From Rhodothermales bacterium (GTDB lineage Bacteria > Bacteroidota > Rhodothermia > Rhodothermales > VXPQ01): a stretch of DNA of 33,965 bases. A program made the translations under genes and the position numbers. How positions within the stretch are numbered: the stretch's first letter is position 1; every line of letters begins with the position of its first letter. Positions 23,710 through 25,735 of this stretch are shown here, in pieces. Where the stretch lies: contig JAJECT010000003.1 in assembly GCA_022821845.1 (NCBI GenBank), forward strand, positions 1 through 33,965. Reading direction: 5' to 3'. The notes under the pieces are model-generated. The model was not told the DNA's origin, did not search any database, and was given only the letters and a program-made list of their open reading frames with translations.

Positions 23710-24486
23710 ATGGACCTCGAACTGCAAAACAAGGTGGCCATCGTTACGGGATCGAGCCGGGGCATAGGGAAATATATCGCCAAACGCCTTGCGGCGGAAG
23801 GCTGCCGCCTGGTCCTGTGCGCCCGGGGCGAAGAACGCCTTGCGGAAACGGCGGCGGAGCTGGAAGGGGAGGGCGCGTCGATATTGGCCCTGCAAACAGA
23901 CCTTGCCGAACAGGATGCGCCGCAAAACGTGGTGAACCGGGCCGTCGAGCGCTTTGGCCAACTGGACATTCTGGTGAGCAATGTGGGCGGCAATCGCCGC
24001 AAGCCCTTTGAGGACACGACCGACGAGGACTGGGAAAGCGTGCTTGACCTGAACCTCCGGGCCCATGTTCGTTCGGCCCGCGCCGCCACGCCGCACATGA
24101 AGGCGGCCGGGGGCGGGGCCATCCTGTTCGTGGCGTCTATTTTCGGACGAGAAGCGGGCGGCGCCGGGCTTTCTATCTACAACGCCACGAAATCGGCCCT
24201 GATCAGCGCGGCGAAGATCATGGCGCTCGAACTGGCTCCCGCCGGTATCCGGGCGAACAGCATTGCGCCGGGGTCCATTCGGTTTCCTGGAGGCAGCTGG
24301 GATCGGCGCGTCCGCGAGCAGCCGGAGGAAATGAAAGCCTTCGTGGCGCGACACTTGCCCGTCGGTCGCTTCGGCAGGGCGGAGGAGGTCGCGGACGTGG
24401 CGGCTTTTCTCGTCTCGGCGCGGGCAAGCCTGGTAACCGGCGCCTGCCTGAACGTAGACGGGGGGCAATCCCGGTCGCTTATTTGA
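23710..24486 (+). CDS. Short-chain dehydrogenase/reductase
   Basis: The 258-residue protein is a classical SDR: cofactor motif TGSSRGIG (13-20), NVGG (91-94) in place of NAG, catalytic Ser143, Tyr157 and Lys161 (YNATK), and the C-terminal NVDGG (248-252) typical of FabG-like enzymes. Arg17 after the first glycine-rich motif and Arg39 favour NADP(H). The substrate is unknown; FabG-like 3-ketoacyl reductase or a sugar/alcohol dehydrogenase are the usual possibilities. The ATG at 23710 fits the family start; an upstream in-frame ATG at 23659 would add a basic leader. It is divergent from the small conserved gene and converges on the palindrome array. Confidence 0.92.
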   Translation: MDLELQNKVAIVTGSSRGIGKYIAKRLAAEGCRLVLCARGEERLAETAAELEGEGASILALQTDLAEQDAPQNVVNRAVERFGQLDILVSNVGGNRRKPFEDTTDEDWESVLDLNLRAHVRSARAATPHMKAAGGGAILFVASIFGREAGGAGLSIYNATKSALISAAKIMALELAPAGIRANSIAPGSIRFPGGSWDRRVREQPEEMKAFVARHLPVGRFGRAEEVADVAAFLVSARASLVTGACLNVDGGQSRSLI

Positions 24487-24509
24487 GGATGCGCCGAACA
24501 AAATCGCTT

Positions 24510-24653
24510 CTATGCAAATTTTGCATAGACCAGCCTATTTCTATGCAATTATTGCATGATAGATATATTCTTCGTGCAATTGGCAGCGCGAATCGGCCTG
24601 CCTTTATGCAATTTTCGCATAATAAATCCCGGTTCTATGCAATAATTGCATAA
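24510..24653. repeat. Array of four to five palindromes spaced about 31 bp, in a convergent intergenic region
   Basis: Four 19-bp palindromes share the core TATGCAAT-W-ATTGCATA. They are 24510-24528 (CTATGCAAATTTTGCATAG, perfect), 24541-24559 (core of 15 perfect), 24604-24622 (two mismatches) and 24635-24653 (8-bp arms). A degenerate fifth (TGCAATTGGCA, 24575-24585) lies between the second and third. Centres are at 24519, 24550, about 24580, 24613 and 24644, so the spacing is close to three DNA helical turns throughout. The region is AT-rich within GC-rich surroundings, and both flanking genes end here. It looks like a cooperative binding site for a dimeric DNA-binding protein; stems with a 1-base centre are poor terminators. 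Confidence 0.85.
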
Positions 24654-24667
24654 AGAGCGCAGGCGCC

Positions 24668-25735
24668 TCACAGGCATTCCCGAAGCGTAGCGAGTACGCG
24701 GCGGCGGCCGGCAGGCGCCTTCTTCCACTGCACCAGAATGGGGCTTTGGTACGTTCCCTTCACAATGGACCCGCATCCATCCGATCCTTCGCCAGGCAAG
24801 ACCAGGAAACGAACCGCGCGCTTCATGCCCAGAAAGTGCGAAGCAGACGTCGTGAACAAGCGCCGTATGGCCCGGTCCGGCAATAATTTCCGGAACCCGG
24901 GCACGTGCAGTACGCTGTTCATTATCCGAATAAAATCGTATTTGACGTACTGCCAGCTTTTTCCGGGAAGCGCCAACGGGTTGCGGAGAAGATACTGTCC
25001 GCCCGTAATGGCGTACTCCAGGGGATTTTTTAACACCGACACGAGGTCGTGCTCCATCAGGAGCGTTTCGTACTCGTTGACCGTAAGCCCCGCCCCGGGT
25101 TGATCCGGATCCAGCTCGAATTCAATCCATCCTTTTGCGATTCCCCGCGCGCGAACCAGGTCCTCGGCTTTTGCGAACAGCCCAACTTTTTCGTTATTCA
25201 AATCGACCGAATCAATGTGTTCGTCGGCGACCGGCGTCTCGACGCTGAATTGGTCCACCAGCCGATCCTGGTCGAATCCGACGATCGTGGAATGCCGGCT
25301 GCGCGCCTGATCCTTGTGGTTGACGCCGTCCAGATCAATGAAATACACCGGCTGGCTCCGCTCGCCGTTGCGGTAGGCCACGCAATTTTCGATGCCTGCG
25401 CTGATAAAACTGAGATGGGAATCCGCATTGGGCGGTTCGTCCTCGCGCTCTGTTTCCGTCAGTTCCACGCGCGACGCCATGTCGTCGTGCCGATAACTTT
25501 TGCCCGCCGGGAACAGGCGCTGAAACGCGCGCAAAAAAGTATGTATGGAGTCCAGGCTATTGTTCAGGCGATGGGCTAATTCCTGGTCGATATAGCCGCC
25601 TGTGGTATGGTGGGAACAGTAGAGCACCCGGGCGTACGGGTCCAGAATGTCCCCGTGTTCTTCGCGAACGCGGCGCCGTACGTCGATTACGTCCAGCCGG
25701 GTCGCGGGCGTCAGGGCAAGATTGATTTCCTTCAT
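24668..25735 (-). CDS. YjbQ/UPF0047-like protein with long C-terminal extension
   Basis: The first 150 residues of this 355-residue protein resemble the YjbQ family: HHTTGGYIDQ (42-51), a helical segment ending FPAGKSYRHDD (75-85), NADSHLSFI (103-111) and a following strand pair ending FIDLDGVN (132-139). YjbQ proteins are normally about 140 residues and have weak thiamine-phosphate-synthase-like activity; their true role is unclear. The remaining 200 residues contain an acidic middle and a hydrophobic/basic C-terminal part that I do not recognise. The ATG at 25735 lies 24 bases after the rmlC-like stop on the same strand, making it the last gene of the dTDP-sugar cluster. The match is by motif only. 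Confidence 0.65.
   Translation of the reverse strand: MKEINLALTPATRLDVIDVRRRVREEHGDILDPYARVLYCSHHTTGGYIDQELAHRLNNSLDSIHTFLRAFQRLFPAGKSYRHDDMASRVELTETEREDEPPNADSHLSFISAGIENCVAYRNGERSQPVYFIDLDGVNHKDQARSRHSTIVGFDQDRLVDQFSVETPVADEHIDSVDLNNEKVGLFAKAEDLVRARGIAKGWIEFELDPDQPGAGLTVNEYETLLMEHDLVSVLKNPLEYAITGGQYLLRNPLALPGKSWQYVKYDFIRIMNSVLHVPGFRKLLPDRAIRRLFTTSASHFLGMKRAVRFLVLPGEGSDGCGSIVKGTYQSPILVQWKKAPAGRRRVLATLRECL

Follow-up and report, generated by a model that had tools for sequence, protein, structure and literature searches.

Paired palindromes of an uncultured Rhodothermales genus as candidate binding sites of a LysR-type regulator

Introduction

LysR-type transcriptional regulators (LTTRs) make up one of the largest regulator families of bacteria, and most of them act locally. 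The sites recognized by BenM and CatM have the form ATAC-N7-GTAT, containing T-N11-A, and each tetramer takes up two such sites (PMC6628147). In the oxyR–oxyS region of E. coli the OxyR sites IR1, located at −66, and IR3, located at −35, are 31 bp apart (PMC5002191), and in its reduced form OxyR contacts two pairs of grooves that are one turn apart (PMC2225504). Among other DNA-binding proteins, those of the Lrp type bind regularly spaced sites and wrap the DNA (PMC2995911), and a CRP site located between convergent genes has a hidden function, which is the control of a small gene (PMC4892627).

Here, we describe an array of palindromes located between two convergent genes in a 33,965-nt stretch of a Rhodothermales bacterium genome (contig JAJECT010000003.1), referred to below as the window. 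The genus to which it belongs is known solely as an uncultured genus of Rhodothermales, and six of its genomes (G000 to G005, where G000 contains the window) were compared with each other and with genomes from outside the genus.

Results

The window array consists of two pairs of palindromes

The array and its neighbors comprise the following features.

23710..24486, + strand: short-chain dehydrogenase (SDR) gene, which stops 25 bp before the array
24500..24510, no strand: left flank of the AAATCGCTTC type, common to the C21 array of G000 (aaatctcttc)
24511..24527, no strand: palindrome 1 (TATGCAAATTTTGCATA), first half of pair A
24542..24558, no strand: palindrome 2 (TATGCAATTATTGCATG), completing pair A at a start-to-start distance of 31 bp from palindrome 1
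24559..24604, no strand: inter-pair segment of 46 bp, homologous to the same segment of the C21 array (z 8.1)
24605..24621, no strand: palindrome 3 (TATGCAATTTTCGCATA), opening pair B at a start-to-start distance of 63 bp (six turns) from palindrome 2
24636..24652, no strand: palindrome 4 (TATGCAATAATTGCATA), completing pair B at a start-to-start distance of 31 bp from palindrome 3
24668..25735, − strand: gene encoding a 355-aa protein that weakly matches UPF0047 (YjbQ-like); the gene stops 16 bp after the array

The whole window contains four matches to the palindrome at up to three mismatches, while the expectation from shuffled sequences is 0.05. They are located at 24511-24652, in agreement with the four strong copies that a previous, sequence-only reading had placed within 24510-24653. 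In a 361-bp region four copies scored at least 11/12, and at most one such copy was obtained in 2000 shuffles. The strong copies have the core TATGCR-W5-YGCATA, with the fuller consensus YTATGCR-W5-YGCATAR, and every one of them contains ATGC-N7-GCAT with T-N11-A, which is the inverted-repeat pattern of LysR sites. The palindromes start 31, 63, and 31 bp from each other, which corresponds to 3, 6, and 3 helical turns, and the real layout is that of two 31-bp pairs, 63 bp apart. Hence, the proposed helical phasing on one face of the DNA was supported, as were the two spacings of 31 bp, while those given as "about 30" and "about 33" bp proved to be a single middle spacing of 63 bp. The weak fifth copy to which those two values belonged, TGC-AATTG-GCA at about 24575-24585, was rejected, because its arms are 2 bp too close and it is out of register; there was no in-register palindrome in 24559..24604, as no motif match between copies 2 and 3 scored above 7/10.

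Both neighbors, the SDR gene on the plus strand and the UPF0047-like gene on the minus strand, end at the array, as had been noted before. Neither a promoter-like nor a terminator-like signal was found at the array, and it had no Rfam match. Because this copy is not located upstream of any neighboring gene, and has no promoter-like site, it is termed here a predicted binding site rather than an operator.

The pair is the unit of arrays throughout the genus

A search of G000 made without any spacing requirement gave 40 sites at up to three mismatches. All 27 palindromes with at most two mismatches have a partner exactly 31 bp away, which indicates that the unit is the pair, a 48-bp element made of two 17-bp palindromes. 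About 13 arrays are present in this genome, and 75 across the six genomes of the genus; the regions in the other genomes were found by a pattern demanding 31 bp, which means that the uniform spacing there is partly due to selection by the search, while the search of G000 and the lack of indels between orthologous sites are free of this bias. The 31-bp pair itself is real beyond doubt. Each array of G002 to G005 is a single pair. Most arrays of G000 and G001 consist of two pairs, whose facing starts are 31, 32, 52, 53, 63, 73, or 83 bp apart, corresponding to 3, 5, 6, 7, or 8 turns of 10.5 bp. This whole-turn phasing between pairs is suggestive, as there are few independent distances other than 31 bp and three of the 63-bp ones may be related copies.

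The search of the genome and its relatives, which the sequence-only reading had recommended, thus revealed 31-bp arrays elsewhere in the genome and a spacing kept in the relatives. In place of randomly scattered single palindromes or an unconserved spacing, either of which would have spoken against that reading, exact 31-bp pairs occur genus-wide. On the other hand, its suggestion of a centromere-like or replication-related site was not supported. In the two closed genomes the arrays are spread around the whole chromosome and are not near the origin or the terminus, while canonical parS sites (TGTTTCACGTGAAACA consensus), which differ from the arrays in sequence, are present separately near the origin, two per genome. 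The identification of the arrays as parS or centromere sites was rejected on these grounds. Organization of the nucleoid by the arrays, another of its suggestions, is possible.

The paired site was found in all six genomes of the genus, with 11 to 26 pattern hits in each, while the other 108 genomes of the order gave only three single 3-mismatch hits, which were isolated and at chance level. Among the genomes of 84,980 species (GTDB), the exact pair recurs only in the Rhodothermales MAGs JAJDWX, OX638293, OX638295, and JANQSQ. One isolated exact pair was also present in each of six other, unrelated bacterial genomes, and there were hits in nine viral contigs; no link of these isolated pairs to the genus was found. 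In two Campylobacterota MAGs (Sulfurovaceae and Sulfurimonadaceae), an ATATGC-N7-GCATAT pair at 31 bp (L148:1492-1539 and L158:4464-4511) adjoins fdhD as well as a formate dehydrogenase-like operon, and a stand-alone HTH_1 protein of the LysR/ModE type is encoded nearby. Related AT-rich viral contigs (L177:7712, L180:10812, L182:6195) contain a TATGC..GCATA pair with 31-bp spacing next to genes of opposite orientation, and in L177 the second palindrome lies between TTGACC and TATATT, like an operator over a promoter.

Site loci are shared and the palindromes are conserved

Judged by their flanking proteins, several site loci are shared across the genus, including AADC/YceI, LysR/HAD, RuvA/amidohydrolase, exonuclease I, EgtD, GyrA-like/lysine aminotransferase, and others. 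The double sites of G000 and G001 occupy loci where G002 to G005 have single pairs. Between orthologous sites, the identity was 96% at the conserved palindrome positions, 81% at the five central bases, 66% in the spacer, and 52% in the flanks at 10–40 bp. As judged from these identities, the palindromes are under strong purifying selection. Two sites are located inside the coding sequences of adk and lptD in all six genomes. The codons of the adk site are ATA and AGA, and in this site (L016:6155-6202) two residues of the protein set G000 and G001 apart from the other species (I to T, D to C), at the very place where their first palindrome comes nearer to the consensus. The fact that the protein changes where the palindrome approaches the consensus points to selection acting on the DNA site itself in these coding sequences.

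Some of these loci have further features of their own. The AADC/YceI site is duplicated in G004 (G004:C1:41161 and 44625), where two identical pairs are 3.5 kb apart, and the copy is accompanied by a second decarboxylase gene fragment, which makes this a local duplication. Near the exonuclease I array of G000 there is a type II restriction-modification pair (L015:7128-8884, G000:C43), in which a D12 adenine methyltransferase accompanies an endonuclease of the EcoRV family (Pfam E 8e-114). Beside another array (L014:1929-6067, G000:C36, ∼121–125 kb) lies a two-gene defense candidate, PADLOC PDC-M23A/B, the second gene of which has matches to HamB-like (Hachiman) DEAD-box helicases; it sits where G002 and G004 have a different gene beside the site.

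The window array is a recent gain

At the place of the window array, G001 has unrelated sequence of about 45 bp between flanks that are 95% identical to those of G000, and the array is also absent from this place in G002, G003, and G004. On the other hand, the window array can be aligned with the array at G000:C21:58661 over the whole unit, at 132 of 163 aligned positions, including the 46-bp middle, for which none of 400 shuffles was as good. Unrelated arrays have only the motif and the spacing in common, while these two share the whole unit. The absence in the relatives together with this alignment indicates a recent gain of the window array by G000 and its homology with the array at C21. 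Its AAATCGCTTC-type left flank was probably part of the copied unit.

A LysR-type regulator gene has the paired site at its promoter

A search with HTH_1 revealed three LTTRs in G003 and a single one in each of G000, G001, G002, and G004. It gave none in G005, an 87% complete assembly of 670 contigs, though 11 sites are kept there; this assembly may just lack the LTTR locus and its site. In G000 the gene is located at G000:C29:11284-12186, and its product is composed of HTH_1 and LysR_substrate domains. Its nearest relatives are the BenM, CatM, and CbnR structures and AlsR, that is, the AlsR/BenM/CatM subfamily. The best family match is AlsR of Bacillus (NCBIfam NF045775, 236 bits, E 5.8e-70); identity with AlsR was rejected, because this score is far below the model cut-off of 430 bits. 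The G004 gene has one in-frame TAG and a shortened C-terminus, and its reading as a broken gene was rejected because of its open frame of 290–297 aa.

In all five genomes of the genus that have the LTTR, a paired site is located 22–45 bp before its start codon. For the array genus alone, chance could explain why one of the about 40 genes that flank the sites encodes a regulator. However, homologues with 48%–51% identity are present in four genomes (G024, G067, G086, G089; families f7 and f14) of genera without arrays, and each has a perfect ATGCR-N5-YGCAT palindrome 13–31 bp before its start codon. A half-good palindrome lies 31 bp upstream of this core, and its good half is the same one as in the array genus. 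In the 0.8 Mb of G086 that were scanned, the best-scoring 31-bp pair was the promoter of the LTTR homologue. A 40% homologue (G014) also has the core motif, while a more distant LysR protein (36%) has ATAGC-N5-GCTAT instead. The sites at the homologues' promoters indicate that the core motif and its geometry follow the LysR protein across families, while genome-wide copies are limited to the array genus. The presence of the site at the promoters of both the genus LysR gene and its homologues in other genera suggests that the motif is most likely a LysR-type operator copied elsewhere. Hence, the view that this is not an ordinary promoter operator is correct for the window copy and not for the motif, which occupies LysR gene promoters in five genomes of the genus and in other families.

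Regarding the gene neighborhood, the LysR gene adjoins a haloacid-dehalogenase-like gene in G000 (L010:6217-8393, C29), and in G000 and G001 it also adjoins a DehI-like gene with its own double array, both names having been read from the sequences. This LTTR may originally have served haloacid metabolism.

Discussion

The comparisons presented above suggest that the arrays are probably binding sites of the genus LTTR, with one tetramer per pair, which would have spread from its own promoter. We infer that the binding would involve a tetramer, with bending or wrapping of the DNA. Each 48-bp pair would hold one tetramer, a dimer of dimers, in which each palindrome would accept one dimer of DNA-binding domains through ATGC-N7-GCAT (T-N11-A), and the 31-bp spacing would correspond to the long, bent configuration, as in OxyR IR1–IR3. 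The ancestral site would have served the promoter of the regulator itself. In the array genus it would have reached about 12 additional fixed positions, and in the lineage of G000 and G001 most sites would have been doubled at whole helical turns, placing two tetramers on one face of the DNA. The window array, a recent gain of G000 related to the C21 array, would be such a double site.

The strongest competitor of the LTTR assignment, which we nevertheless consider unlikely, is that the arrays are chromosome-structuring sites (for bridging, looping, or as domain anchors) of another genus-specific DNA-binding protein, one of which the LysR promoter carries by chance. In favor of this view, the two closed genomes have about 12 sites distributed around the entire chromosome, a promoter bias is lacking, with convergent regions if anything over-represented, sites are conserved within adk and lptD, and the pair-to-pair distances of 31, 52/53, 63, 73, and 83 bp fit whole turns. 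Coincidence does not explain, however, why the LysR homologues of array-less genera have the same core motif and 31-bp geometry at their promoters. A small mobile repeat family of the REP/REPIN or MITE type, in which the palindromes serve transposition, is an improbable source of the arrays. It would account for the absence of the window array at the same place in the four relatives and for its homology with the C21 array including the middle segment. On the other hand, it is the palindromes, and not the spacers, that have long been conserved at shared loci, unrelated arrays have merely the motif and spacing in common, two sites are within essential genes (adk and lptD), and the G001 locus is not a clean empty site with a target duplication.

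Other paired-box regulators are very improbable binders. An Lrp/AsnC protein could be considered given the regularly spaced sites and DNA wrapping known for this type, and each genome has one such gene; yet no array is present at this gene, and across the order, including genera without arrays, the recognition helix of its product has hardly changed. ArgR was brought up by the ARG boxes of Streptomyces, while its domain PF01316 is absent from all six genomes of the genus, and as to NrdR, none of the flanking genes inspected was recognized as encoding a ribonucleotide reductase. Least probable of all is that the palindromes act as RNA hairpins, either terminators or stabilizers of the 3′ ends of converging transcripts. 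The intergenic RNA does fold well (z −5.1) and many copies are located close behind stop codons, but any inverted repeat folds in this way. Moreover, the arm sequence is fixed instead of covarying freely, the spacing is in whole DNA turns, copies are also found between divergent genes and in coding sequence, and the window array itself lacks a terminator-like signal.

The positions of the sites bear on their role. The site loci include 5 convergent, 4 divergent, and 11 tandem ones, compared to 1.9, 7.3, and 10.7 expected for random intergenic regions, where the counts are approximate because orientation was judged manually on the output of a simple codon-usage gene caller. These counts, together with the chromosome-wide spread, indicate positions unlike those of a promoter regulon. 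Both this lack of promoter bias and the sites kept in G005, where no LTTR was found, weigh against the LTTR assignment. The regulon reading was rejected, as the flanking genes show no coherent function. A wide-acting or architectural role of the sites is possible, and so is a function as decoys or in the control of small unannotated transcripts, by analogy with CRP (PMC4892627). At the window locus, the predicted local effect is most likely that of a nucleoprotein patch or a transcription roadblock rather than control of initiation. A further-reaching idea, which we regard as doubtful, is that a local, self-regulating LysR protein became a chromosome-architecture protein: its paired site would have been copied as a unit to about a dozen conserved, mostly non-promoter places, and in one lineage the strength of the sites would have been doubled by a second tetramer site at whole turns, with the tetramers bending or bridging the chromosome.

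What makes such questions accessible is that one type of site can be traced from a single promoter in other genera, through a dozen conserved and partly non-promoter or intragenic sites in the array genus, to doubled sites in two species. Because the spread can be traced in this way, the question of how a wide-acting regulator or an architectural protein arises becomes open to testing. In addition, sites at shared loci were doubled in concert, in each case at whole helical turns, which provides a natural experiment on cooperative binding.

Among described systems, the sites of BenM and CatM, whose regulators are close relatives of the genus LTTR, share with the arrays a 15-bp inverted repeat ATxC-N7-GxAT with T-N11-A and a regulator gene located beside a site. 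They differ in having the half-site ATAC instead of ATGC and in being located at promoters, while about a dozen arrays can be found anywhere, including between convergent genes and in coding sequence. The exact 31-bp pairs have the dimer-of-dimers spacing of OxyR IR1–IR3, where 15-bp inverted repeats with centers 31 bp apart form the long, bent arrangement. The OxyR half-site is ATAG instead of ATGC, and OxyR has a middle repeat, IR2, located 22 bp from IR1 and used on activation, to which no independent 22-bp equivalent is evident in the arrays. RptR (PMC12255303) was also considered and was rejected, as its 6-bp TAGCTA is unrelated to the array motif. The CRP site resembles the window array in being a regulator site between converging genes, and differs from it in that no promoter-like signal is present at the window array. 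The arrays are similar to organizing sites of the ParB/parS type in that there are few of them per chromosome, conserved, partly inside genes, and independent of the direction of transcription, while they differ in sequence and are not clustered at the origin or terminus. The kind of site is known, and it is its deployment that is unusual.
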